DNA from: Oscillospiraceae bacterium
Lineage (GTDB): Bacteria; Bacillota; Clostridia; Oscillospirales; Ruminococcaceae
Assembly: GCA_017829005.1 (NCBI GenBank)
Contig: JAGAJF010000038.1
Coordinates: 1 to 43,364, forward strand
Direction: 5' to 3'
Length of the DNA: 43,364 bases
Position 1 is the stretch's first letter; every line of letters begins with the position of its first letter. Below the pieces are notes generated by a model. The model worked only from the letters and a program-made list of their open reading frames with translations, made no database searches and had not been told where the DNA came from. Made by a program: the position numbers and the translations under genes. Of the stretch, positions 9,241-30,467 are shown in pieces.

Positions 9241-10071
9241 CTATCCCTTTACTGCGCCTGCTATAACGCCTTCGATGATATACTTCTGACTGAACAGATA
9301 GAATATGATTATGGGAAGTATGGCAAGCACAAGCATTGCCATAAAGCCCCCCCAGTTCACCGAGCCGTATGCGCCCTGCATTGATATCTGTATGGCTACG
9401 GGCAGGGTCTTGTATCTGTTTCCGAGTATCAGATAGGGCAGAAGATAGTCGTTCCATATCCACATTGCGTTGAGTATCGCCACCGTTACCGCTGTGGGCT
9501 TTAAGATGGGGAACACTATGCTGAAAAATGTCCGAAGAGGCGTACAGCCGTCTATTTCCGCTGCTTCCTCAAGCTCCTCGGGAATCGACTTTACAAAGCC
9601 TCCCAGCATAAACACCGACAGTCCCGAGCCGAAGCCGAGATATACAGCGATTATTCCCACGGGATTATTGAGGTGAAGTCCCGATGCAACATAGGTCATT
9701 GTGTACATCACCATCTGGAAGGGCACTATCATCGAAAAAAGGAAAAGCTTGTAAATTATCCTGCTAAGCCTGCTTGTGTCACGCATAATATACCAGGCGG
9801 TCATTGAGCAGAGCAGGACGAGGGCAAACACGCTCAGAACGGTTATGAAAACCGAGCGGACAAATGCTCCGCCTATCCCTGCTGCAGTTATGCCTGTGAT
9901 ATAGTTGTCAAAGCCTGCAAAGGTTTCTTTATTCGGCAGGCGGAAGGGGCTTCCCATAATGCTGAACTTGGTCTTGAAGGAGTTCATAAACACTATGGCA
10001 ATGGGGAAAAGAAACACTGCCGACAGAAGTATCATAAATATAAAGCCCACGGGGTTTGTTTTTTCTTTCAT
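9241..10071 (-). CDS. CUT1 sugar ABC transporter permease (MalG/LacG type)
   Basis: A 276-residue integral membrane permease of a carbohydrate importer, with about six hydrophobic segments starting at residues 8-30. The cytoplasmic EAA loop that docks the ATPase is clear (EELEEAAEIDGC, then a Pro-rich end), and the C-terminus has the family-typical QKYIIEGV..GAVKG ending. Its ATG overlaps the TGA of the upstream permease by four bases, so the two are translationally coupled and probably form a heterodimer. The length is usual for the family. The substrate is not readable; an oligosaccharide is likely given the GH43 gene close by. No ATP-binding subunit is encoded here. Confidence 0.9.
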   Translation of the reverse strand: MKEKTNPVGFIFMILLSAVFLFPIAIVFMNSFKTKFSIMGSPFRLPNKETFAGFDNYITGITAAGIGGAFVRSVFITVLSVFALVLLCSMTAWYIMRDTSRLSRIIYKLFLFSMIVPFQMVMYTMTYVASGLHLNNPVGIIAVYLGFGSGLSVFMLGGFVKSIPEELEEAAEIDGCTPLRTFFSIVFPILKPTAVTVAILNAMWIWNDYLLPYLILGNRYKTLPVAIQISMQGAYGSVNWGGFMAMLVLAILPIIIFYLFSQKYIIEGVIAGAVKG

Positions 10072-10913
10072 CGTTCTTTAGCCGCCTTTCCTTCGGTGAG
10101 CCTCAGCTGGATAAAGGCTATTGCTGCCGCTATGATAAAGAATATGACTGCCTTTGCCTGTCCTGCCCCCTGCCAGCCGGGTCTGCCGTAGAAGGTGTTA
10201 TAGATATCAAGGGCAAGCATTGCAGTCTCCTTTCCCGGAGCGCCTGCGGTAAGGGCAAGGTTCTGGTCAAAGAGCTTGAAGGAGTTTGTGAGGGTCAGGA
10301 AGGTGCATATGGTCACCGAGGGCATTACCATAGGTATGGTTATGCGCCATATTATCTGCCACCTTGATGCGCCGTCTATCTCCGCCGCTTCGGTTATATC
10401 TCTCGGGATATTTTGCAGTCCTGCGATATATATCACCATCATATAGCCGATAAGCTGCCAGTTTGTGAGGATAACTAGTCCCCAAAAGCCGTATGCTGCC
10501 TTGTAGGTGATGTCTGTGCCGAAGAAGCCTAATACACCGTTTATTATAAGGTTCCAGATATATCCAAGGACTATGCCGCCTATGAGATTAGGCATAAAAA
10601 ATATGGTTCGGAACACGTTGGTTCCCCGAAGTCCTTTGGTGAGGGCAAGAGCCAGGAGAAAGGCAAAAATATTTACCGTTATGACCGATACCACGGTGAA
10701 TTTCACCGTGAACCACAATGCGTTCGTGAAGCTGCTGTCCGAAAATATCCGCCTGTAATTTTCAAGTCCCGTCCAGCTTGCATTCGCCACGGTGGTGAAT
10801 TTGCAGAATGAGAGGTATATTCCCATTGCAAAGGGTATGAGAAAGGATATGATGAATGCCAAAAGGGTGGGGAGTACGAACAGGGGGAAATAGGGGTGTA
10901 GATTTCTTTTCAT
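10068..10913 (-). CDS. CUT1 sugar ABC transporter permease (MalF/UgpA type)
   Basis: A 281-residue partner permease with about six membrane segments; the first (about 10-35) follows a short basic N-terminus. The EAA loop reads ITEAAEIDGASRW, then a Pro-containing helix (RITIPMVMPS). The ATG at 10913 is chosen because it gives the family-typical start MKRNLHPYFP and lies two bases after the stop of the binding-protein gene; an in-frame ATG at 10943 would add ten residues and overlap that gene. Neither has a strong Shine-Dalgarno, consistent with coupling. It ends in an ATGA overlap with the second permease. Confidence 0.88.
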   Translation of the reverse strand: MKRNLHPYFPLFVLPTLLAFIISFLIPFAMGIYLSFCKFTTVANASWTGLENYRRIFSDSSFTNALWFTVKFTVVSVITVNIFAFLLALALTKGLRGTNVFRTIFFMPNLIGGIVLGYIWNLIINGVLGFFGTDITYKAAYGFWGLVILTNWQLIGYMMVIYIAGLQNIPRDITEAAEIDGASRWQIIWRITIPMVMPSVTICTFLTLTNSFKLFDQNLALTAGAPGKETAMLALDIYNTFYGRPGWQGAGQAKAVIFFIIAAAIAFIQLRLTEGKAAKER

Positions 10914-10915
10914 AG

Positions 10916-12301
10916 TTACAGCATGGAGCTTTCGGTCTCCCATGAGCTTCTTACCGTTTCGGTGACGTAGTTCCAGTCACGGCTGCCCTGGGCGTACTGT
11001 AAGAGTGCGGCGCCGAAATCGTTCTTGAAGTTCTGGCTGGGGAATACGGTAAAGCTCCAGGGGATAGTTTCTGCGTTTTCCTTATCCATCCAGCGGAGCA
11101 CTTCTCTGCTCAGGGGGTCGGTGGGCTTTTCTGTGTCTGTGAAGGTGTCAAAGGGGGCAATGAAGCCAAGCTTATTTACCACCATATCCTTGCCTGTTTC
11201 GGAGGAATAGAGCCAGAAAAGGAAGTCCTTTGCCGCCTGCTGCTCCTCGGGCTTTGCGGCGCTGTTTATACAGAGGAAGTTTTCAGTTCCTATGCAAAGT
11301 CCCTGATTTTCCTCGCCCTCAAGTCCCATATATATAGGCATCATTCGGATATTTTCCTCGGAAATCGTATTGCCCGGAACGGAGCTTATCTGTGACCATG
11401 CCCAGCTTCCATTCTGGACCATTGCGCACTCGCCAAGGGCAAATTCTGCCATTGACTCATCTGTTATTTTAGAGCCCAGCATTTTTCTGTCAAGGGTGGA
11501 GTTATTGAGATAAAGGTCGAAGATATTGCGGTAGTTTTCGCCGTAGGCAAAGTTAAGAGTTTTAACACCCTCCCCTGTCAGGTCGATTTGATTATCCGCA
11601 AATTCACGGTGTATGGGGATATTTGCAAGGTGAGTAGTCCAGCGCCAGTCGTCTCCCGATTTGAGCGATGTGGCGGCAAACACACCCTTTATGCCCAGCT
11701 CCTTTGCATTTGCCTGCATATCTTCAACAAGGGCTTTAAGCTCCTCATAGGAGTTTACCTCGTCCATTGATACGAAGTCAGTTTTACGGTTTTCGAGGGC
11801 GAAATAACGCTGCATTATCTCGTCGTTGTAGATAATTCCATAGCCCTCGACGGCATAGGGAATACCGTATGCCATACCGTTTGCGGAGACTGCCGACGTT
11901 TTGTCGATAAGGTGGTTATAGATATCGCTGTCTGTAAGATCAAGGCAATAGTCACGCCAGTTTGCATAGCCTCGGGGTCCGTTTATCTGGAAGATCACGG
12001 GTGCCTCGGGAGTGGACATTTTTGCGCTGAGAGTCTGCTCGTAGGTATTGTTTGCGGCGGTCTCAACGATGAGGGTATTGCCCGTTTCGTCCTTATACGC
12101 CTGTGCAATTTCCTCATAGACGGGTGCGGCTTCGGGCTTGAAGTTTAAAAATCTGACGGTGACATTTTTTTCCGCTGTCTGTCCGTTCTGTCCCTCCGAA
12201 ACGGCATTTTGCTCGCTGTTGTTCTTTTTTCCGCAGGCGGTGAGGGTGGTCATTATGCTCATTGCCGCTATGCAGGATATTATTTTTGTGTAGCTTTTCA
12301 T
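10916..12301 (-). CDS. Extracellular sugar-binding lipoprotein (SBP_bac_1 type)
   Basis: A 461-residue solute-binding lipoprotein and first gene of the importer operon. The signal peptide ends in lipobox LTA-Cys23 and is followed by a short polar linker. The mature domain starts with a VRFLNFKPEAAPVYEEIAQAYK motif region typical of CUT1 binding proteins and has the family pattern of a Gly/Trp-rich second half (QNGSWAW, about 300). AAGGAAG precedes the ATG. It should capture an oligosaccharide and deliver it to the two permeases downstream. Ligand specificity cannot be assigned. No regulator is attached, but an inverted repeat lies 20 bases upstream. Confidence 0.9.
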   Translation of the reverse strand: MKSYTKIISCIAAMSIMTTLTACGKKNNSEQNAVSEGQNGQTAEKNVTVRFLNFKPEAAPVYEEIAQAYKDETGNTLIVETAANNTYEQTLSAKMSTPEAPVIFQINGPRGYANWRDYCLDLTDSDIYNHLIDKTSAVSANGMAYGIPYAVEGYGIIYNDEIMQRYFALENRKTDFVSMDEVNSYEELKALVEDMQANAKELGIKGVFAATSLKSGDDWRWTTHLANIPIHREFADNQIDLTGEGVKTLNFAYGENYRNIFDLYLNNSTLDRKMLGSKITDESMAEFALGECAMVQNGSWAWSQISSVPGNTISEENIRMMPIYMGLEGEENQGLCIGTENFLCINSAAKPEEQQAAKDFLFWLYSSETGKDMVVNKLGFIAPFDTFTDTEKPTDPLSREVLRWMDKENAETIPWSFTVFPSQNFKNDFGAALLQYAQGSRDWNYVTETVRSSWETESSML

Positions 12302-19880: not shown

Positions 19881-20552
19881 ATGTACAGAATATATATAAT
19901 TGAGGACGACCGCACCATTGCGAATGCTGTGAAAAGCCACCTTGAAAAATGGGGCTTTGAAGCAAAATGCGCCGAAAATTTTAAGGATATTATGAGCGAA
20001 TTTTCCGAGTATTCCCCTCACCTTGTGCTGATGGATATAGGACTCCCCTTTTACAACGGATTTTACCACTGCTCGGAGATACGCAGAGTTTCAAAGGTGC
20101 CTGTTGTTTTTCTTTCCTCCGCTTCGGACAATATGAATATCGTTATGGCGATGAATATGGGGGGCGATGATTTTATTGCAAAGCCCTTTGACCTGACCGT
20201 GCTTATGGCGAAAATTCAGGCAATCCTGCGGCGCACATACGATTTTGGCTCGGAGACAAATGTTATTGCCCATAAGGGAGCAATGCTCAATATTTCCGAT
20301 GCGACCCTCAGCTTTAACGGCGAAAAAATCGACCTTACAAAGAACGAATATCGCATTTTGCTCACTCTGCTTGAAAACAAGGGCAAGGTGGTGAGCAGGG
20401 ATTTTCTGATGAACAAACTATGGGAGACTGACAGCTATGTTGACGAAAATACCCTTACGGTCAATGTGTCAAGGCTCAGAAAGAAGCTGGAAAGATCGGG
20501 ACTTTCGGATTTTATCGAAACAAGATCGGGTATGGGTTATATAGTGGAGTAA
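19881..20552 (+). CDS. BceR-type OmpR-family response regulator
   Basis: A 223-residue response regulator. The receiver domain (1-118) has the acidic pair Glu8-Asp9-Asp10, phosphoacceptor Asp52 (LMDIGLP) and a Lys in AKPFD. A winged-helix domain (about 130-223) has LTKNEYRILLTLL and the recognition region DENTLTVNVSRLRKKL. Size and sequence style match BceR-like regulators of antimicrobial-peptide ABC transporters. AAGGAGG precedes the ATG. Its stop is followed immediately by the kinase gene. The probable target, a TTACA-N4-TGTAA palindrome, lies in front of the downstream transporter genes. Confidence 0.92.
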   Translation: MYRIYIIEDDRTIANAVKSHLEKWGFEAKCAENFKDIMSEFSEYSPHLVLMDIGLPFYNGFYHCSEIRRVSKVPVVFLSSASDNMNIVMAMNMGGDDFIAKPFDLTVLMAKIQAILRRTYDFGSETNVIAHKGAMLNISDATLSFNGEKIDLTKNEYRILLTLLENKGKVVSRDFLMNKLWETDSYVDENTLTVNVSRLRKKLERSGLSDFIETRSGMGYIVE

Positions 20553-20558
20553 GTGAAA

Positions 20559-21539
20559 ATGTTTGGTGAATATATTTTATCCCGCAGGAAAAATATCATA
20601 GTATGGCTTATTGTATGCGCTTTGTTTGCACTTGTCTTTTCGCTGTACGGACTTCCCGCTGCTCCTGTGGTTTACGGAGCTTTGCTAAGCGGATTTTTTG
20701 GGCTTGTTTTTTTGATAATAGATTTTTTCACCTACCGCCGCAGACGAATTATGCTGCAAAGGCTTGCGGAGGAAATAACCCTTTCGGCAGATAATATTCC
20801 CCTGCCCCGAAACGGCATTGAGGAGGATTATACAAGGCTTATCCATACACTCTATGACACTCTCAAGGCGTCTGAAAATGAAGCCGCCGAAAAATTTTCC
20901 GATATGACGGATTACTACACAATGTGGGTGCATCAGATAAAAACGCCCATTGCCGCTATGGGGCTTATTCTGCAGGGCGGGGACAGTCCCGAATACTGTG
21001 AGCTGTCGGAAAATCTGCAAAGAATTGAGCAGTATGCGGATATGGTGCTTTGTTATCTTCGTCTTGACAGCGACAGCAGCGATCTTGTTATCAGGGAATA
21101 TGACCTTGACGGTATTGTGAGACAGGCTGTAAGAAAATTTTCATCTCAGTTTATCCGCAGGCGGCTAAAGCTTATCTATGAGCCGCTTGATAAATCAGTC
21201 CTTACCGATGAAAAATGGCTTCTGTTCGTTATCGAACAGGTAATTTCCAATGCTGTGAAATATACTCCCTCCGGGGAGGTCGAGATCTACTGCGAAGAGC
21301 CGCTGTCCTTATGCATACGAGATACGGGCATCGGAATAGCTCCCGAAGATCTGCCCCGTATATTTGAAAAGGGCTACACGGGCTGTAACGGCAGACTTGA
21401 TAAGAAGGCAAGCGGTATCGGTCTCTATCTTTGCAAACGTATCTGCGGCAGGCTTGGGCATATGATAAGCGCGGAAAGCTGCAGTGCGGGTACGATAATA
21501 AAGATATCCCTTGAAACGAATAAGCTTGAAATTGAATAG
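20559..21539 (+). CDS. BceS-type sensor histidine kinase
   Basis: A 326-residue membrane kinase of the intramembrane-sensing type. Two TM segments (about 12-31 and 35-57) are joined by only a few residues, so there is no extracellular sensor domain and the signal comes from the BceAB transporter. The dimerisation helix contains His125 in WVHQIKTP, the BceS hallmark. The ATPase domain shows the N-box (QVISNAVKYTP), G1 (DTGIGI) and G2 (SGIGLYL). The ATG at 20559 has GGAG nine bases before it; the GTG at 20553, directly after the regulator's stop, is too close. It pairs with the preceding response regulator. Confidence 0.92.
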   Translation: MFGEYILSRRKNIIVWLIVCALFALVFSLYGLPAAPVVYGALLSGFFGLVFLIIDFFTYRRRRIMLQRLAEEITLSADNIPLPRNGIEEDYTRLIHTLYDTLKASENEAAEKFSDMTDYYTMWVHQIKTPIAAMGLILQGGDSPEYCELSENLQRIEQYADMVLCYLRLDSDSSDLVIREYDLDGIVRQAVRKFSSQFIRRRLKLIYEPLDKSVLTDEKWLLFVIEQVISNAVKYTPSGEVEIYCEEPLSLCIRDTGIGIAPEDLPRIFEKGYTGCNGRLDKKASGIGLYLCKRICGRLGHMISAESCSAGTIIKISLETNKLEIE

Positions 21540-21541
21540 CC

Positions 21542-21614
21542 TTACAAAAATGTAAGATTTTTCGGGAAAATGTAAGCCGTATCAATGGCGGACATTTTCC
21601 CTTTCTGATATAAT
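21542..21614 (+). promoter_or_regulatory. BceR-type operator and promoter of the transporter genes
   Basis: TTACA-AAAA-TGTAA (21542-21555) is a perfect inverted repeat identical to the published BceR site pattern TNACA-N4-TGTAA. A second TGTAA follows at 21571-21575, exactly 20 bp after the first. A TATAAT (21609-21614) follows; the -35 position (TGGCGG, 21586-21591) is poor, as expected for an activated promoter. Confidence 0.82.
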
Positions 21615-21638
21615 TATGATCAGAAAGGAATGATGACA

Positions 21639-22400
21639 ATGCCAATGCTTGAGGTAACAAACGTAAAAAAGACATACACCGCACGAATAGGAGCGGCAAA
21701 GGTGGAGGCTCTGAAAAACGTGACCTTCACTGCCGAAAAGGGTGAATATATCGCAATAATGGGCGAGAGCGGCTCGGGTAAGACCACCCTTCTTAATATC
21801 CTTGCGGCTCTTGACAAGCCCACGGGAGGAAAGGTGGTGCTTGACGGCTCGGAGCTTTCTAAGGTAAAGGAAAGGGAAGCGGCTAAGTTCAGGCGGGATA
21901 ATCTTGGTTTTGTTTTTCAGGAGTTTAATCTTCTGGATACATTTACCGTCAGGGATAATATTCTTCTGCCGCTGGTGCTTATGGGAATGAGTTACCCCGA
22001 AATGGAGAAAAAGCTGCTGACTGCCGCAGCAAAGCTGGGTATTTCGGAGCTTCTTGACAAATACCCCTATGAGATATCCGGCGGACAGAAGCAGCGTACA
22101 GCCGCCGCAAGGGCAATGATAACCGAGCCAAAGCTTCTCCTTGCGGACGAGCCCACGGGCGCGCTTGATTCCAAAGCCTCCGACGAGCTGTTGTCGGTTT
22201 TCTCAAAGCTGAATTCAGAAGGACAGACTATCCTTATGGTGACCCACTCCGTCAAGGCGGCAAGCCATGCAAACAGGGTGCTTTTCATCAAGGACGGAGA
22301 GGTTTTCCACCAGATATACAGGGGAAGCTGCGGCAACGAGGAGCTTTACAAAAAGATATCCGACACCCTCACCCTTATCGCTTCGGGAGGTGCGGTCTGA
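21639..22400 (+). CDS. BceA-type ABC transporter ATP-binding protein
   Basis: A 253-residue ATPase of an antimicrobial-peptide resistance transporter. Walker A (GESGSGKTT), Q-loop (FVFQEFNLLDTF), signature (SGGQKQR) and Walker B plus Glu (LLLADEPTGALD) are all present, and the H-loop is TH in VTHSVKAA. The start is one of several clustered ATGs; 21639 gives the best distance (10 bases) to AAAGGA, while 21630 and 21633 would add residues. Its TGA overlaps the ATG of the permease gene (TGATG). With the permease it should flush peptides such as bacitracin or lantibiotics off their lipid targets and signal to the kinase. Confidence 0.92.
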   Translation: MPMLEVTNVKKTYTARIGAAKVEALKNVTFTAEKGEYIAIMGESGSGKTTLLNILAALDKPTGGKVVLDGSELSKVKEREAAKFRRDNLGFVFQEFNLLDTFTVRDNILLPLVLMGMSYPEMEKKLLTAAAKLGISELLDKYPYEISGGQKQRTAAARAMITEPKLLLADEPTGALDSKASDELLSVFSKLNSEGQTILMVTHSVKAASHANRVLFIKDGEVFHQIYRGSCGNEELYKKISDTLTLIASGGAV

Positions 22401-24430
22401 TGAACAAAATGCTGTTATATCCAAGGCTTGCGGTAAACGGCATAAATAAGAACCGCCGCACATATCTGCCCTATATCCTCACCTACTCGGGAATGATAAT
22501 GATGTACTACATCACCTCATTCCTCACCGTAAGCAGCTTTGTAAGGGAGATGAAGGGCGGAGATATTATGCAGCAGCTTCTTTTTATGGGCTGCGGCGTA
22601 ATGGTCGTATTTTCCGCTGTTTTTCTCTTTTATACCAATTCATTCATTATCCGCCGCAGAAAGACCGAGTTCGGACTTTACAATATTCTCGGAATGGATA
22701 AGCGGAATATCTCAAGGATACTTTTGTGGGAAACTCTGATGATATATGCTATATCCATCGTTGTGGGAATTTCCTGCGGGATACTTTTTTCAAAGCTTGC
22801 GGAGCTGGCACTTACAAAAATGCTGGGCGGCGGGGCTTCATATACTTTTAATGCAGAGCCGAAATCTATTATTCACACACTTGTTTATTATGCGATCATC
22901 TTCCTGCTGATACTGATAAATTCTCTCAGACAGATACATCTTGCAAATCCTATTGAGCTTATGAAAAGTGAAAATTCGGGTGAAAAGCCGCCAAAGGCAA
23001 ATTATGTTTTAGCGGTTCTGGGAGCGCTTATTCTCGGTGCGGCTTATTTTATGGCTGTATATATCAAAGAGCCGCTAAGTGCGATCTTTGCATTTTTCGT
23101 TGCTGTGCTTATGGTCATTGCCGCTACCTATCTGCTGTTTATTTCGGGTTCGGTGGCGGTTTGCAGAGTCTTGCAGAAAAACAAGAGGTATTACTATAAG
23201 ACGAACCATTTCATTTCCGTTTCACAGATGGCGTACAGAATGAAGCGAAACGGTGCAGGACTGGCTTCTATCTGCATTTTGTCCACAATGGTGCTTGTAA
23301 CGCTGTCTTCAACAATATGCCTTTACATCGGCGAGGAGGATATGCTGAGAAATCGTTACCCGAGAAATATTGTCATCGACACATATTCGACGGAAGAAGC
23401 TATGACATATCTTACCTATAAGGCGGCGGAGGACGCTCTTGAAAAGTACGGAGAAACGCCCGAAAATATTCTTCATTACAGCTATTACAACATCACGGCG
23501 GCATTTGAGGGAAACAAGGTGATCTGCGACGCCGAAAAGGTCAAGGAGATCTCAAACACGGTAAATAACGATACTCGCCAGATATTTTTCGTGACAATAT
23601 CGGACTACAACAAGGCAATGAACAAAGCCGAGGTTTTGTCGGAGGACGAGGCTGTCATCTGCACGGTAAACGGCGATTTTAGCTATAACACCATTGCTTT
23701 TGACGGCTATAAGACCTTTGCCGTCAAGTCGAGAGCAGAGGATTTTACGGGCGCAGGTTCGGCAATGGTCAATGCAGTCCCATCGGTGTATATTTTTGTA
23801 AAGGACGAAACTGTCATAGCTGAACTGTCCGAACAGCAACTTGGAATACCGGGCGAATATCATTCCCGTATGCACGATTATTACGGCTTTGACCTTAACT
23901 GCAATGAGGAAAAGCAGGCAGCGATAGGAACGGAAATATTTGATAACATAGTGAAGCTTAAAGCAGAGCACCCCGATGATTGGAACGGCGTTTCCCTTGA
24001 CTGCGCCGCAAATGACAGGGCAGAATTTTACGCTTTGTACGGCGGACTGTTTTTCCTTGGCATACTGTTCGGAACGGTATTTATCGCCGCTGCTGTGCTG
24101 ATAATGTACTACAAGCAGATATCCGAGGGCTTCGAGGACAAAGCAAAATTTGAGATACTCCGGAAGGTGGGAATGACAAAGGACGAGATACGAAGGAGCA
24201 TAAATTCTCAGGTTCTTACCGTATTCTTTGCTCCCCTTGCCGCAGCGGGCGTTCATATGGCGTTTGCCTTCGGGATAATCTCAAGGCTGCTTATGCTGTT
24301 CGGTCTGACGGACGCAGGGCTTTTTGCGGCGGTCACACTTTGCTGCTTTATGGCGTTCGGGATTTTGTACACAGCGGTCTATCTTATCACTTCGGGCAGC
24401 TATTACAAGATAGTAAGCGGAAGGGAATAA
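22400..24430 (+). CDS. BceB-type ABC transporter permease
   Basis: A 676-residue permease with the BceB layout: about ten TM segments, FtsX-like regions at both ends, and a large extracellular domain (roughly 300-545) between TM7 and TM8. The N-terminus (LYPRLAVNGINKNRRTYLPY) is typical of the family. The extracellular domain is the part that recognises the drug and is the least conserved, so the target cannot be predicted. Start and stop overlap the ATPase gene by one base. It is the last gene of the module and is followed by a G+C-rich stem with a T-rich end. Confidence 0.92.
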   Translation: MNKMLLYPRLAVNGINKNRRTYLPYILTYSGMIMMYYITSFLTVSSFVREMKGGDIMQQLLFMGCGVMVVFSAVFLFYTNSFIIRRRKTEFGLYNILGMDKRNISRILLWETLMIYAISIVVGISCGILFSKLAELALTKMLGGGASYTFNAEPKSIIHTLVYYAIIFLLILINSLRQIHLANPIELMKSENSGEKPPKANYVLAVLGALILGAAYFMAVYIKEPLSAIFAFFVAVLMVIAATYLLFISGSVAVCRVLQKNKRYYYKTNHFISVSQMAYRMKRNGAGLASICILSTMVLVTLSSTICLYIGEEDMLRNRYPRNIVIDTYSTEEAMTYLTYKAAEDALEKYGETPENILHYSYYNITAAFEGNKVICDAEKVKEISNTVNNDTRQIFFVTISDYNKAMNKAEVLSEDEAVICTVNGDFSYNTIAFDGYKTFAVKSRAEDFTGAGSAMVNAVPSVYIFVKDETVIAELSEQQLGIPGEYHSRMHDYYGFDLNCNEEKQAAIGTEIFDNIVKLKAEHPDDWNGVSLDCAANDRAEFYALYGGLFFLGILFGTVFIAAAVLIMYYKQISEGFEDKAKFEILRKVGMTKDEIRRSINSQVLTVFFAPLAAAGVHMAFAFGIISRLLMLFGLTDAGLFAAVTLCCFMAFGILYTAVYLITSGSYYKIVSGRE

Positions 24431-24622: not shown

Positions 24623-25690
24623 TTATTTCTCATTATGCTTCTTATAATAAATTTCCGAGATCTTTTTCTGATAACTTTCCTCAGCCTTGTTCTTTATCGC
24701 CCTTGCTCCCCTGCCTGCAAGCTTTGTGAGCATAAACAGGGCGTAGACCAGCGATATGGCAGGTATTATCATCAGATACGGAACGGGTGCCGCCGCAAGC
24801 CTTGCAGTCAGCTCTGCACTTCTCAGACGGTTTTCATACCAGGGCAGAGCCATTTTTGTTTTTATCATAACGCTTTCGGATATCTCCGAGGTGCCTTTAA
24901 TAAGCTTTATCAGACTGAAGCGTCCGCTCTGGTCAACTACAAAAGCTTTCTCCCCTGCAGGGTTTATTTCCTTTATCACCGTATACGCATAGTCCTTCAC
25001 CACATTCGGGAGACAAGCCTCATAGGTGGTGAGAGCTGTACCCTCATTCAGAGCTTTTAATGACTCAAAGGGCATATACGCTCTGGGAGTATTGCCATAA
25101 GCCGCCTTGTCAGCCTTACTGTCGGGGGACTCCACCACTCCCGCTACATAAAAGACCTTGTTTCCGATGTTGACGGGCATTCCAACCGTATCCATCGAAC
25201 CGAACAGCTGCCAGGAGCATTCTCTGTCAAGTATCACTCTGTCAATGTTGATGTCGTCCTGCGAATAATAGCTGCCGCTCATAAGCTTTTCGGGGTGGAA
25301 AATGAAGTAATCTCCGAAGGTCCCCGTGACTTCGGCTGTACAGCTGCCAAGCTTTCCTGTCATCGAAAGGGTGCTTTCGCCGCCTGCACAGTCTATCCAC
25401 AGCCTGCCCTCAGGATTATCCTTATCGGCAGTCACAGAGCTTTCCTTTAATTTCTCCTCCACAGACTGCCTCAGCGTATATACGCCTAATACATCAAGGG
25501 CATTATCTGTGGGAAGAAACAGGGATATCTGGGAGTAGCTGTATTTTTCCCCGTCCCACGCCTGCTTGGCGCTGTCCGAGGAATACTCGTTTTTAAGCGA
25601 GACCGTTTTTCCTGTGAGAAGCCCTGCAGCAATAAGCAATATGGCGTTTAATGCCGCAAGGATAATATTGAATTTTTTCAGCCTGCTCAT
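24623..25690 (-). CDS. Two-TM protein with MacB-like extracellular core domain
   Basis: A 355-residue protein with one N-terminal TM segment (about 8-27), an extracellular region of about 270 residues and one C-terminal TM segment (about 305-325) followed by a Lys-rich cytoplasmic tail. The extracellular part resembles the periplasmic core of MacB/FtsX permeases: a Ser/Tyr-rich start, DILDRECSW-like VILDRECSWQLFG, then GNKVFYVAGVVE. Normal MacB-type permeases have four TM segments with three FtsX helices at the end; here only one is left. It may be a dedicated partner rather than a pump. Its ATG lies 10 bases after the HlyD-like gene. Function unknown. Confidence 0.72.
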   Translation of the reverse strand: MSRLKKFNIILAALNAILLIAAGLLTGKTVSLKNEYSSDSAKQAWDGEKYSYSQISLFLPTDNALDVLGVYTLRQSVEEKLKESSVTADKDNPEGRLWIDCAGGESTLSMTGKLGSCTAEVTGTFGDYFIFHPEKLMSGSYYSQDDINIDRVILDRECSWQLFGSMDTVGMPVNIGNKVFYVAGVVESPDSKADKAAYGNTPRAYMPFESLKALNEGTALTTYEACLPNVVKDYAYTVIKEINPAGEKAFVVDQSGRFSLIKLIKGTSEISESVMIKTKMALPWYENRLRSAELTARLAAAPVPYLMIIPAISLVYALFMLTKLAGRGARAIKNKAEESYQKKISEIYYKKHNEK

Positions 25691-25700
25691 ATGTCCTCCA

Positions 25701-27620
25701 TCATTCTGCGGGACGTACCTGCTCGCCTGCGGAAATGGGCTTTGTTGATGTGGTTATAACAAATTCGCTGCCCGAAAGACCGTTCACCGCCGAATTGTTA
25801 TCGTCCTTCACTATGACCTCCACATCGTATCTCACAGCCTTGTAGCGGTTTCCGAGAGGACTGCTCTTTGCCTCCATCACAAGGACGAATTTGCCGTTGG
25901 AATCCTCTCTCACAGCCGAATTGGGAACTACTGTACTGTAGTTCTGTCCCTTGCTGCCCATTGAAAGGGTAATGGTCTGACCCGTTGAGATATCCGAACC
26001 CGAAACCTTGAAAACGAGTATTTTCTGAGACTGGGGATTTGCTGTATCGGGACGTATCTCGGAAAGCTCTGCGGAGAAATTATCTCCCCAGTACCAGCTT
26101 GTTATCTCAGCCTTGTCACCGATCTTGACCTTTTTCGCCTGCTCGGTCTTGACGGAAAATTCCACCACATAGCCCATATCGGATACATTGATGACAGCCG
26201 CTGTAGTTCCTGCCTCCGCCTTGCTTCCTGCGGTCACGGAAATGCTCTCCACAACGCCCCCCATTTTTGCCTTCACAACAGCGTCATATGAATTGCTTTT
26301 GAGCTTCTGAACCTTTTCCTTCTGCTGCTCGATAGCCTTTGCCTTTGCCTCAAGATCAAGCTTTGCAGTCTGGTTTTCCACATTTGAAGCGGACTGCTTT
26401 ACCTCAAGGTCGGCTCTGAGCTTTGCTATCTCGTCTTCCTTTTCGGTTATCTTGGCTGTGAGCTGTGCCGCTGACAGCAGCCCCTGCGCCTCAGCCTCAG
26501 TTTTATCCTCTTCTGCTGCTGCCATTCTGTCGGAAGCGGCAAAAAGCTTATCATTTATTTCATCAAGCCTTGCCTTTATCTCAAGCTTGACTGCTCTTGT
26601 TACCTCGCTGAGTTCATCCTTTGCGGCTGTAAGCTTATCCTGGGCTTTCTTTGATGCGTCCTCCGCATTTTTAAGCTTCGTCTTTGAAACAGAGCTTGTT
26701 GAGGCTTTTGCCATAAGATTTGAAAGCTCTCTTTCAAGCTTGGTTATCTCAATTTTCTGTGAGTCTATCTGCAGGGAGATGGCAGAGGTATCCTCGTCGG
26801 GCTTGAGATTGTAAAGTGAAACATAATACTCGTTGAGAAGATTTCTTGCGGACTCTATCTCTGCCTGCTTTGATGTAATTGCGTCATTATAATCTGTGTT
26901 GTCGCCAACCTCCTTGACAAGATCGTCATATGCAGTCTTAGCCTTTTCAGCCTTTTTCTCGGCGGCTGTAACGCTGTCCTTTGCAGCTCTCATACGGTCA
27001 TAATAATCTCCCGTAAGGTCGAGCATATCCTCCGTATCAACGGAAGCAAGAGCGGCGTTTAACTCCTCCTTTTCCCTGGTAAGCTTCTCCGAAAGAGCCT
27101 TTGCATCTTTATACTCCGCAGAAGCCACGCTCAGAGGGTCGGAGCCGCTTTCTGCCGAAGCAAGCTGATCTTTAAGCTTCTGCAGCTCTTCTTCGGCACG
27201 TGATATTGTAAGATAATCCGTTTCATAGCCCGAGCCTGCCGCAAGAGTAAGCTCGGCTTTTTTATACTCAAGCTCAAGAGAGTCAAGTGTATTCTGAGCC
27301 TCTGTAAGCTCTGTAGAGACCTCGTCTGCAAGCTCAAAGAGAATATCGCCTGCCGAAACGGTCTGACCCGTTTTAACAGCCACGCTTTTTATCTCTCTGG
27401 TTTCCTCGAACTTCACCTCATAGCTTTCGGCAGCCTCCACTGTACCGCTTCCCCGTATCTGCTCGGAAATCGTTCCCTGATTAACATATACAGCCGATAC
27501 CTGGGGCAGGGAGTAATTCATAATTGTATTTGAGAAAAATGTCAGCACCAGAAGCACTGCCAGAAATACAATGGCAATGTTCTTGATGATCTCCTTTCTC
27601 GGCGTTCTTTCGTTGTTCAT
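25701..27620 (-). CDS. HlyD-like membrane fusion/adaptor protein with long coiled coil
   Basis: A 639-residue adaptor anchored by one N-terminal TM segment (about 14-33). A barrel-sandwich/lipoyl half (about 42-98, with SGTVEAAESYEV and VKTGQTVSAGDILFEL) leads into about 340 residues of heptad-rich coiled coil (100-440), then the second lipoyl half (GGVVESISVTAGSKAEAG) and beta-barrel domains to the end. Such proteins connect exporters to the outside; in Gram-positives YknX-type adaptors work with MacB-like pumps. Here the neighbours are CUT1 importer-type permeases and a reduced MacB-like protein, which is unexpected. AAAGGAT precedes the ATG, 17 bases after the permease gene. No lipobox is present. 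Confidence 0.88.
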   Translation of the reverse strand: MNNERTPRKEIIKNIAIVFLAVLLVLTFFSNTIMNYSLPQVSAVYVNQGTISEQIRGSGTVEAAESYEVKFEETREIKSVAVKTGQTVSAGDILFELADEVSTELTEAQNTLDSLELEYKKAELTLAAGSGYETDYLTISRAEEELQKLKDQLASAESGSDPLSVASAEYKDAKALSEKLTREKEELNAALASVDTEDMLDLTGDYYDRMRAAKDSVTAAEKKAEKAKTAYDDLVKEVGDNTDYNDAITSKQAEIESARNLLNEYYVSLYNLKPDEDTSAISLQIDSQKIEITKLERELSNLMAKASTSSVSKTKLKNAEDASKKAQDKLTAAKDELSEVTRAVKLEIKARLDEINDKLFAASDRMAAAEEDKTEAEAQGLLSAAQLTAKITEKEDEIAKLRADLEVKQSASNVENQTAKLDLEAKAKAIEQQKEKVQKLKSNSYDAVVKAKMGGVVESISVTAGSKAEAGTTAAVINVSDMGYVVEFSVKTEQAKKVKIGDKAEITSWYWGDNFSAELSEIRPDTANPQSQKILVFKVSGSDISTGQTITLSMGSKGQNYSTVVPNSAVREDSNGKFVLVMEAKSSPLGNRYKAVRYDVEVIVKDDNNSAVNGLSGSEFVITTSTKPISAGEQVRPAE

Positions 27621-27637
27621 AACCGTTATATCCTTTC

Positions 27638-28543
27638 TTATCCTTTAATTCCGCCCGAATATGTAATGCCTTCAACAAGATATTCCTCGCCGTAGAGAAA
27701 CATCAGCAGGGACGGGGTCATATAAATTACCGCCACCGCAAAGGCAAGTCCCGTATCGCCCGTATTTATCTTCGACAGGAAAATTGACAGCGGGTGAAGC
27801 TGCTCGTCATTTAATAGAATGAGAGGCTGCTCGACCATATTCCAGTAGTCGATAAACACCAGCATAAGCACTGAGAAAACAGCGCTTCGCACCATCGGGA
27901 AGCATATATTCGTAAATATCTGCAGCTCGCTTGCCCCGTCAAGCATTGCCGCCTCGAAATATGTTTTCGGTATCCTCTTCATCGCCTTTGTTAACAGGAA
28001 GACCGCAAAGGGCGAGAAAATTCCGGGGAGGATTATCGCCCATCTTGTGTTTAAAAGCCCCAGCTTGTCGGCAACAAGGTAATTCGGCACCAGCGTTACC
28101 TGATATGGCATAAGCATAAGCACGATGTAGAAAAAGAAGAGAATTTCCTTCAGTTTGCCCGTAAGTCTCGCAAAGCCGTAGGAGGCAAACAGCGCCACCG
28201 CCGTCTGGAATATGACCACAGGGACTGTGAGTATAACCGAGTTCCAGAATTTCAGCAGATAATCGGGAGTTTTGAAAAGCACCGAAAAATACTGACTGAA
28301 GCTTACCATATCGGGGATAAATTTGAGATTTACCTTCTCTGAGATAAATGTCTTGCTGCCGCCGCTTATTGATGAGAAAACCACACCGTAGTTTGCATTT
28401 ATCTCCGACTGAGCCATAAAGGAATTTGTAATGGTAAGCAGCGTAGGCAGGAGAAATATGACCGAAGCCACCGCTGCAAACAGGGTCATTACCGCAAGTA
28501 TTACCTTCTCAGCGGCTTTCTGCGGGGAACGTATCTTTTTCAT
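27638..28543 (-). CDS. CUT1-type ABC permease (MalG-like) in the hybrid operon
   Basis: A 301-residue permease with about six membrane segments. The EAA loop reads FEAAMLDGASELQIF, followed by a Pro-containing helix, and the end GEEYLVEGITYSGGIKG fits the family. A roughly 50-residue extracellular insertion between TM1 and TM2 (about 45-100) is longer than in the permease at 9241. The ATG overlaps the TGA of the partner permease by four bases. The sequence differs clearly from the other MalG-type permease in this window, so it is not a recent duplicate. It needs an ATPase that is not encoded here. Confidence 0.88.
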   Translation of the reverse strand: MKKIRSPQKAAEKVILAVMTLFAAVASVIFLLPTLLTITNSFMAQSEINANYGVVFSSISGGSKTFISEKVNLKFIPDMVSFSQYFSVLFKTPDYLLKFWNSVILTVPVVIFQTAVALFASYGFARLTGKLKEILFFFYIVLMLMPYQVTLVPNYLVADKLGLLNTRWAIILPGIFSPFAVFLLTKAMKRIPKTYFEAAMLDGASELQIFTNICFPMVRSAVFSVLMLVFIDYWNMVEQPLILLNDEQLHPLSIFLSKINTGDTGLAFAVAVIYMTPSLLMFLYGEEYLVEGITYSGGIKG

Positions 28544-29445
28544 TCCTCAACGTCACCCCCGAACTTGTTTTCCGCAATGAACATTGCACCGATAATTACC
28601 ACCATAACAAGCGACATTATCATTGCCGCCGCCGACAGCTTCTGATAATCGAGAGACCTGAAGGTGTTGTTCATAAAATGCTGGAGCAGGTACAGATCCT
28701 CAAAGGGGTAATCGCCCGTCAGCAGATAAACCTCTCTGAAAAGCTTGAAGGAATTTATGAGGGACAGGATAGTCACAAACAAAATCGTGGGTGATAAATA
28801 TCTGAGCTTAATGTGCAGAAGTCTATATAGCCTGCCTGCTCCCTCAAGCTCCGCCACCTCAAGAAGATCCTTCGGAATATTGTTGAGCGCCGCCAGAAAC
28901 AGTATCATATTATATCCCAGATTTTTCCATAAAAACAGCAGCACTACAACTATCATACATTTGCCGGACTTCATCCAGTCCACAGGAGCTGCCTGAAACC
29001 ATTCCGCAAGCACCGCATTAAGGGTTCCGTGATAATGGAACACCACCTGCCATATGAGCACTACCGAAGCCACGGGAACCATCATGGGACAGAGGAAAAA
29101 TGTTCTGAACAGGCTCTTGCAGGGTATTTTCGAGTCCAGCAGAGATGCAAGTCCCAAGGATAAAACCACCGCCAGCGGCACAGCCACAGCCGACAGGAGC
29201 AGGGTGTTCTTTGCCGCCGTAAGAAATGCGTTATTCTTGAAAAGTATCTCGTAATTCTTAAAGAATACGAATTCTTTGTTTATGGGGTTATCGAGAAATG
29301 AGTACCGGATGATTATGATAAACGGGATTATGAAGAAAACCGAAACGCCGAGGAAGCTTGGAAGCAATGACAGCCTTGCAAAGACCGTATTGGTGTCCGT
29401 AAGCTTAGACGGTCTGATCTTCTCCTCCTTTATTTTCTTTTTCAT
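28540..29445 (-). CDS. CUT1-type ABC permease (MalF-like) in the hybrid operon
   Basis: A 301-residue permease and first gene of the operon. The ATG at 29445 is chosen because AAAGG lies eight bases before it and gives a basic Lys-rich N-terminus; upstream in-frame codons have no site. A long basic tail (1-25) precedes TM1 (about 30-50). The EAA loop reads LLEVAELEGAGRLYRL, with Val for the first Ala. Six membrane segments are visible. It forms a coupled pair with the next permease. The divergent AraC gene 209 bases upstream is the likely regulator. Confidence 0.87.
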   Translation of the reverse strand: MKKKIKEEKIRPSKLTDTNTVFARLSLLPSFLGVSVFFIIPFIIIIRYSFLDNPINKEFVFFKNYEILFKNNAFLTAAKNTLLLSAVAVPLAVVLSLGLASLLDSKIPCKSLFRTFFLCPMMVPVASVVLIWQVVFHYHGTLNAVLAEWFQAAPVDWMKSGKCMIVVVLLFLWKNLGYNMILFLAALNNIPKDLLEVAELEGAGRLYRLLHIKLRYLSPTILFVTILSLINSFKLFREVYLLTGDYPFEDLYLLQHFMNNTFRSLDYQKLSAAAMIMSLVMVVIIGAMFIAENKFGGDVEE

Positions 29446-29508
29446 ATGTATTGCCTTTCTTTTGTCAGATAATGGAAATTCCTTTTGGAGACAAAACTCC
29501 ATAATCTC

Positions 29509-29654: not shown

Positions 29655-30467
29655 ATGACCGATCTCAGCAAGATCTATATGCCCATAACCGCCGACCCAT
29701 TTGAGAATAGTGACAGCTATACCGAAATTATGCCCTCTGCTCCCCTGAGACCATACATACGCTGCTTCTGGGGAACAAAACGCCCTGTAAAGCAAAGATC
29801 CTTGGGAATTGTTATCCCCGACACCTGTATGGACATAATTTTTCATTTTTATGAAGAGGGCAGCACAAGCTTTTTCTGTCATATTGACGAGACAGCACAT
29901 CTCCCCTCGAGTAATCGGGACACCGCTGAATATTCCACCTTTGCAGTCCGCTTTTACCCGTGGTCAGCCGCCGCATTTGCGAAATATCCCGATATGAGCA
30001 TACCCACCGAACGACCCGAGGATATTTTCCCGAACCTCACCGGAAGGCTATATGAAGCGGTCTCACGTGAAAGTACACTTACGGGACGCTCCAAAGCCGC
30101 CGAAGCAGTGCTTTATGATCTCCTCAGACCCGAAAATCAAAGCGACGATGTAATGAACGCATTATATCTTGCAATTATTTCGGGCGGCAATATAAAAATT
30201 TCCGACCTTGCCGCCTATACTGCTCTTTCCCCCAGGACACTCCAAAGAAAATTTGCTCTGCAAACGGGAATGTCCCCGAAGGTGCTCTGTGACCTTATCA
30301 GATATCAGCTTCTGTGGCAGGAAATAGCTCTGGGAAACGGGATATCCATACTTGACGCCGTGGAAAAATACGGCTACTATGACCAGTCCCATTTGCTGGG
30401 AGATTTCCGAAAGCGGCACCTTATGACCCCTGCCGAAGCTGTAAAATATCTTCACCGAAGCAGATAA
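29655..30467 (+). CDS. AraC-family transcriptional regulator
   Basis: A 270-residue regulator. The N-terminal domain (about 15-150) is of the DUF6597-like type (PLRPYIRCFWG, VIPDTCMDIIFHF, AVRFYPWSAAAF) common in AraC proteins that respond to small ligands. The C-terminal helix-turn-helix pair (about 170-265) shows ISDLAAYTALSPRTLQRKF and the second helix region YGYYDQSHLLGDFRKR with the usual MTPAEA ending. Shine-Dalgarno AAAGGAG precedes the ATG. It is divergent from the hybrid transporter operon, a typical regulator-target layout. It is complete, unlike the AraC fragment at 15399. Confidence 0.9.
   Translation: MTDLSKIYMPITADPFENSDSYTEIMPSAPLRPYIRCFWGTKRPVKQRSLGIVIPDTCMDIIFHFYEEGSTSFFCHIDETAHLPSSNRDTAEYSTFAVRFYPWSAAAFAKYPDMSIPTERPEDIFPNLTGRLYEAVSRESTLTGRSKAAEAVLYDLLRPENQSDDVMNALYLAIISGGNIKISDLAAYTALSPRTLQRKFALQTGMSPKVLCDLIRYQLLWQEIALGNGISILDAVEKYGYYDQSHLLGDFRKRHLMTPAEAVKYLHRSR

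Follow-up and report, generated by a model that had tools for sequence, protein, structure and literature searches.

A recurrent operon pairing CUT1-type importer permeases with a HlyD-like adaptor and a MacB-core protein: a candidate ABC importer with exporter-type parts

Introduction

An operon in a contig of an Oscillospiraceae bacterium raises the question of what machine is formed when two CUT1-type permeases, which belong to importers, are encoded with a HlyD-like adaptor and a MacB-core protein, components that have so far been treated as exporter parts and that PMC5985334 assigns to exporter or mechanotransmission systems. A first-pass annotation, made from the DNA letters and translated open reading frames, had proposed that this one operon mixes both kinds of component, either as a complex in which the adaptor or the MacB-core protein replaces the binding protein (SBP) or as one powered by a shared ATPase. 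The window analyzed here is the whole 43,364-nucleotide stretch of contig JAGAJF010000038.1 (assembly GCA_017829005.1), which we compared with related genomes at the level of genus, class and phylum.

Gene content of the operon and its surroundings

The four genes form an unbroken run in the ORF list at 24623-29502 on the minus strand, in the order permA, permB, adaptor and MacB-core (Table 1). The permA and permB genes overlap by 4 bases, and gaps of 17 and 10 bases precede the adaptor and MacB-core genes, respectively; the ORFs and Pfam matches confirm the layout originally described, and both permeases have EAA loops. The Pfam calls for all four proteins exceed the curated cut-off of each family, while NCBIfam gave no name above cut-off for the five proteins tested. 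For permA, whose product has five to six hydrophobic segments, a start at 29445, the one adopted in the first-pass annotation, is likelier than one at the first ATG at 29502, because a ribosome-binding-like sequence was found there. Neither an SBP gene nor an ATPase gene is present among the ORFs of the operon, as had been noted.

Table 1. Features of the operon in the window and of the corresponding C. thermocellum locus (L302).
Feature	Coordinates	Strand	Remarks
permA, CUT1-type permease, 320 aa from first ATG	28540-29502	-	PF00528 63.7 bits, cut-off 26.4
permA EAA loop, EVAELEGAG...	28795-28860	-	residues 215-236 of 320-aa ORF
permB, CUT1-type permease, 301 aa	27638-28543	-	PF00528 58.1 bits, cut-off 26.4
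permB EAA loop, EAAMLDGAS...	27890-27955	-	residues 197-218
HlyD-like adaptor, 639 aa, N-terminal membrane helix	25701-27620	-	HlyD_3 (PF13437) 34.4 bits, cut-off 22.2; HlyD_D23 (PF16576) 33.6 bits, cut-off 30
Adaptor, long helical hairpin region, residues 103-442	26295-27314	-	helices predicted in model
MacB-core protein, 355 aa	24623-25690	-	PF12704 29.3 bits, cut-off 27
MacB_PCD match inside MacB-core, residues 116-215	25046-25345	-	Pfam
Adaptor as two overlapping ORFs; short AAA/MoxR ORF between CbpC and permA	L302:7636-8986 and 10931-11779	-	

Outside the operon, the window holds an ordinary SBP (461 aa) encoded with its own pair of CUT1-type permeases and without an adjoining ATPase gene (9241-12301, minus strand), as well as an ABC ATPase/FtsX pair on the opposite strand to the operon (21630-24430, plus strand). 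This pair is part of a series, convergent with the operon, of response regulator, histidine kinase, ABC ATPase and FtsX-type permease genes (19881-24430, plus strand), which we take to resemble a Bce-type (antimicrobial peptide) system. Divergent from permA is a gene for an AraC-type regulator with DUF6597 (29655-30467, plus strand), possibly the regulator of the operon; a homologue of this regulator gene is likewise divergent from permA in locus L066 (genome G013).

Conservation of the gene set

Among 150 relatives, in which the module was marked by its MacB-core protein or an orthologous permease, it was present in 23, comprising 17 of the 20 members of the genus (the window's own genome included) and 6 of the 130 outside it; weak MacB-core matches (E 6.7e-7 or worse) in G035, G045, G046, G050 and G118 were not counted as the module. 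At the class level, 26 of the 391 genomes sampled had a MacB-core match at E < 1e-20, a threshold past which true members may fall, as does the C. thermocellum MacB-core protein (1.2e-16). Twelve of these 26 neighborhoods were read, and permA, permB, adaptor and MacB-core were together in all twelve, with the adaptor and MacB-core genes coming first in the cluster in G113.

A scan of named contigs with an alignment of permB yielded at least 588 confirmed permease relatives, of which the best 80 were examined; these derive from metagenome-assembled genomes (MAGs) named Ruminococcus, Oscillospiraceae, Lachnospiraceae, Acetatifactor, Blautia and similar. Forty-eight of the best 80 had at least 6 kb after and at least 4 kb before the permease (the other 32 had too little flank), and in these 48 named loci the adaptor and the MacB-core genes were each present in 48 and permA in 47. 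In the phylum sample the permease was detected at E <= 1e-45 in 10 of 398 genomes, and seven of the nine loci retrieved at this level kept the four-gene order; no adaptor or MacB-core was found in the other two, L326 and L327. (The adaptor of L321 went unlabelled owing to preference for an ORF on the opposite strand.) The L327 locus contains, behind an SBP gene, a 541-aa ORF matching both permA and permB as fused permeases (L327:7355-8977, plus strand).

That the gene order is conserved across genomes makes a chance mixture of genes unlikely, and an operon peculiar to one strain, which was one of the two outcomes that would have spoken against the first-pass proposal, is ruled out by the many genomes in which the order was found. 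Gene order thus indicates that the mixed operon of importer permeases, HlyD-like adaptor and MacB-core protein is a genuine conserved unit, found repeatedly within the class and also outside it.

The permeases point the same way. Among 140 distinct MalG-like permeases from the fetched loci, the score against the permB profile is at least 187 bits for 130 and at most 100 bits for 10, and a tree splits the identical 130 from the identical 10 sequences with a support of 0.974. Within 4.5 kb and on the same strand, 126 of the 130 clade permeases have an adaptor gene vs. 0 of the 10 outside, and 120 of 130 vs. 1 of 10 have a MacB-core match, in a set that was partly fetched via other module members and holds some near-identical sequences, although its 80 named loci (the best 80 of at least 588) were fetched by the permease alone. 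Judged from the tree and these neighborhoods, permB belongs to a separate permease clade tied to the adaptor gene.

The binding protein

In six relatives (G015, G018, G001, G021, G040, and G038) the MacB-core gene is followed by a gene of 782-864 codons. Pfam identifies an SBP domain in four of the six products (G021, G001, G040, and G038) and gave no match for those of G018 and G015; all six are homologous to one another. SBPs of this kind are mostly about 720-890 aa in the relatives and are predicted to consist of a propeller and a CbpC-like SBP domain. The propeller half had no sequence match in the PDB and is visible only in structure comparison, where an NHL domain accounts for one of 50 rows. 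With start codons left uncurated, 70 of 94 long SBPs agree with a simple lipobox pattern. Proteins of 1057-1094 aa with a duplicated N-terminal (propeller) part occur at L200:13861-17142, L203:5177-8347 and L208:14013-17183 (all plus strand), and several CbpC-type SBP genes lie in series or close together with one module at L303-L304 (G174) and L305 (G378).

Linkage of the SBP gene to the module is usual. Within the best 80 of at least 588 permease relatives, 45 of the 48 named loci with enough flank have an SBP gene in the operon, downstream in 43, upstream in 28 and on both sides in 26. No long-SBP homologue adjoins the module in G013, G002, G012, G009, and G007, yet each of these genomes, like that of the window, encodes one elsewhere, and in all three genomes of the genus that were tested (G013, G010, and G002) the unlinked SBP gene and a gene for a CE2-type carbohydrate esterase are divergently oriented. 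The single SBP homologue of the window's genome, on contig C96, has 808 or so residues and a lipoprotein-like start, is 36% identical to the G015 protein over residues 4-780 of the latter, and matches PF01547 at 43.3 bits (cut-off 26).

Module and SBP also tend to be present or absent together: among the 150 relatives 21 have both, 2 the module only, 2 the SBP only and 125 neither, and outside the genus the corresponding numbers are 5, 1, 0, and 124, counts that are inflated by shared ancestry and in which SBP matches weaker than 1e-30 are taken as absent.

The ATPase

A gene for a MalK-type ATPase adjoins the MacB-core gene at eight loci in seven genomes (L309, L319, and L320-L325), and the four of these eight ATPases that were tested with Pfam all have OB_MalK and TOBE domains. 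The window's genome encodes two ATPases with OB_MalK, one of them beside another permease pair and the second, on contig C16, with no labelled permease or SBP gene adjoining. The nearest PDB entries to the C16 ATPase are 7x0q (E 1.5e-175), which we take to be the stand-alone ATPase Clo1313_2554 of PMC9601137, and then MsmX (E 1.2e-129). Its identity to the eight module-linked ATPases is 55-60%, compared with 49-53% for the genome's other-importer ATPase. By these similarities the stand-alone MalK/MsmX-type ATPase on C16 is the likely motor of the operon, which lends weight to the earlier suggestion of a shared ATPase, and the permease pair at 9241-12301 probably uses the same enzyme.

The search for an orphan ATPase and an orphan SBP that the first-pass annotation had recommended thus produced a candidate for each. 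As the C96 and C16 genes are both unlinked to the operon, we infer rather than observe their partnership with it. The same annotation had named as evidence against its proposal relatives that carry an ordinary SBP and ATPase in this operon with the adaptor elsewhere; the former part holds for the SBP and sometimes for the ATPase, but the adaptor is present in those operons too, and the hybrid layout therefore stands.

In three genomes of one genus (L308, L317, and L328) permA is immediately preceded, on the same strand, by genes for an ABC ATPase and for a membrane protein with nine segments. Two of the nine-segment proteins were scanned, and DUF6449 was matched above cut-off in L308 and below it in L328. 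These genes could point to another partner.

The adaptor and the MacB-core protein

Hydropathy analysis of the adaptor identified one membrane segment, and its structure model shows a membrane helix and beta domains, together with a stretch of about 340 residues, from 103 to 442, that is mostly helical. The model matches the folds of AcrA, EmrA, and MacA in structure comparison, with a pTM of 0.38 that makes the overall arrangement unreliable. In the alignment the hairpin stretch of the window adaptor is 349 residues long, within a range of 191-497 (median 326) for the aligned set. If folded back once, the helical region would have arms of ~170 residues and a reach of at most roughly 25 nm, which is of the order of the thickness of a Gram-positive wall.

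The MacB-core protein has two membrane segments by hydropathy, one near each end. The family profile identifies MacB as its best PDB match (E 7.8e-10), followed by YknZ (1.9e-9). The only Pfam match of the window protein is MacB_PCD, with neither an FtsX nor an ATPase domain, and the MacB-core proteins of L302, L320, and L322 likewise match MacB_PCD alone and not FtsX. A MacB-type exporter that has merely lost its ATPase gene is ruled out by this domain content. Two goat-gut MAGs of Lachnospiraceae (L224 and L244) carry the MacB-core protein and the SBP as a single uninterrupted ORF of 1078 or 1093 codons, as judged by reading the junctions, with the MacB-core part preceding the SBP (Pfam on L224); the two fusions may represent one event.

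Relation to transporter C and other known systems

The CbpC sequence is 100% identical over 384 residues to a protein encoded in the genome of L302, which we take to be C. thermocellum. The order at L302 is CbpC, a short AAA-type ORF, permA, permB, the adaptor as two ORFs and a MacB-core protein of 473 aa. CbpC is the SBP of transporter C, clo1313_2783-6 according to PMC11212667. The resemblance to the window module lies in the permA-permB-HlyD-MacB-core order and the CbpC-type SBP. The differences are that CbpC lacks the propeller half, that the SBP gene is linked in transporter C and unlinked in the window's genome, that the adaptor is split over two overlapping ORFs rather than one, and that the MacB-core protein is longer, with six hydrophobic segments in a simple scan.

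According to PMC9601137, CbpC has a blocked pocket and showed no binding to any sugar tested, and mutation of transporter C left growth on glucose, cellobiose, and Avicel normal; a table in a review (PMC11212667) lists tight sugar binding by CbpC from an earlier study, so that this binding is disputed. A figure legend in PMC9601137 names acrA among transporter-cluster genes, the legend text leaving the cluster unspecified, and the cluster is thus already in print. Among the papers listed by our searches of one library of open-licence papers, none treats an adaptor or a MacB-core protein as an importer part or describes a hybrid of this kind (in PMC12838199, "MacB" belongs to the name of a strain). 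As far as these searches reach, the module, which is recurrent and probably a variant of the CUT1-type importer with exporter-type parts, has been little noticed.

With importers of the MalFGK2/MsmEFGK type the module shares two PF00528 permeases with EAA loops, an SBP_bac_1/8 domain and, at eight loci of relatives, a MalK-type ATPase, for which the window's genome would probably rely on the C16 candidate in trans, but the permB clade is separate from other MalG-like permeases in the tree, and to our knowledge neither an adaptor nor a MacB-core protein is part of those importers. With the MacAB-TolC and YknWXYZ/Spr0693-0695 exporters it shares the fold of the HlyD-type adaptor and the MacB periplasmic core. 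Unlike MacAB/YknXYZ, it has no MacB-type ATPase and no FtsX match, its partners are importer permeases and an SBP, and its MacB-core protein has two membrane segments, fewer than the four of MacB. Like the alginate superchannel of Sphingomonas, the proposed machine would be an ABC importer lengthened by components outside the membrane to handle large glycans; we know of no HlyD or MacB parts in the superchannel and use it as a working analogy only.

A proposed mechanism and its alternatives

Our preferred reading, to which we assign a probability of about 0.6, is that the operon encodes the membrane and adaptor parts of a single CUT1-type ABC importer, in which a tower of adaptor and MacB-core protein, standing outside the membrane, would dock the binding lipoprotein above the permeases. 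We favor it because the set recurs in relatives, usually with an SBP gene and in a few cases with an importer-type ATPase. Counting against it are the results for CbpC and the transporter C mutant, the genes that precede permA in L308, L317, and L328, the unlinked position of the SBP and ATPase genes in the window's genome, and the unreliable overall arrangement of the adaptor model. In the window's genome the SBP would be the unlinked C96 homologue, and energy would come from the stand-alone C16 ATPase, probably common to other sugar importers, which would act on the EAA loops so that uptake proceeds by alternating access, as in MalFGK2. The MacB-core protein and adaptor would not couple ATP themselves and would hold the SBP at the mouth of the permeases, while the long hairpin may take the point of docking into the cell wall or all the way across it. 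A glycan fragment is the probable ligand, though this is a guess. A more specific form of the proposal, offered tentatively and at somewhat less than even odds, is a wall-spanning tripartite importer in which propeller SBPs sit on the MacB-core/HlyD tower, the hairpins cross the wall and a MalK-powered CUT1 pair performs the transport, that is, an exporter architecture used for uptake.

It is conceivable that the machine does not import at all, and that the permeases and a MalK-type ATPase instead move the MacB-core protein and adaptor for work outside the membrane, such as moving, folding, or exporting a surface polymer or lipoprotein, with the propeller SBP sensing a ligand. Exporters or mechanotransmission systems are the usual home of both proteins (PMC5985334), and the blocked pocket of CbpC, its undetected sugar binding and the normal growth of the transporter C mutant on the three substrates tested (PMC9601137) would fit such a role. 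We nevertheless consider it unlikely given that the permeases retain their EAA loops, the SBP gene stays with the permeases in 45 of 48 named loci (from the best 80 of at least 588), the ATPases of the eight loci are MalK-type, and the MacB-core proteins scanned lack an FtsX match.

Two other readings would divide the parts or reassign them. The operon might encode two machines, an ordinary CUT1 importer and a separate adaptor/MacB-core pair, perhaps with an ATPase encoded elsewhere; the ABC ATPase and nine-segment membrane protein genes directly before permA in L308, L317, and L328 are consistent with this, but the clade of permB lies beside the adaptor in 126 of 130 cases, the MacB-core protein and SBP can be fused, and the four-gene order is retained across the class and beyond, leading us to regard it as still less probable than a machine that does not import. 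That the adaptor or the MacB-core protein took over the role of the SBP, as first suggested, would agree with the lack of an SBP gene in the window operon and of a long-SBP homologue beside the module in G013, G002, G012, G009, and G007. Those five genomes and the window's own hold an SBP homologue elsewhere, however, and the MacB-core gene is kept beside the SBP gene where both are linked. With an SBP linked in 45 of 48 named loci (best 80 of at least 588) and an unlinked homologue in the window's own genome, we regard such a replacement as very improbable, and by far the least probable of the readings.

Significance

If adaptors and MacB-core proteins are wired to importer permeases, an SBP and an ATPase, as in the single importer that we favor, the functions of such adaptors would be broadened. 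The arrangement would also offer an answer to a puzzle raised in PMC4446572, namely that adaptors with hairpins occur in Gram-positive bacteria despite there being no outer membrane. It would supply a testable function for fiber degraders' genes in the gut that are now annotated as orphan adaptors or as "ABC transporter permease", and places the disputed transporter C of C. thermocellum in a family with testable partners.
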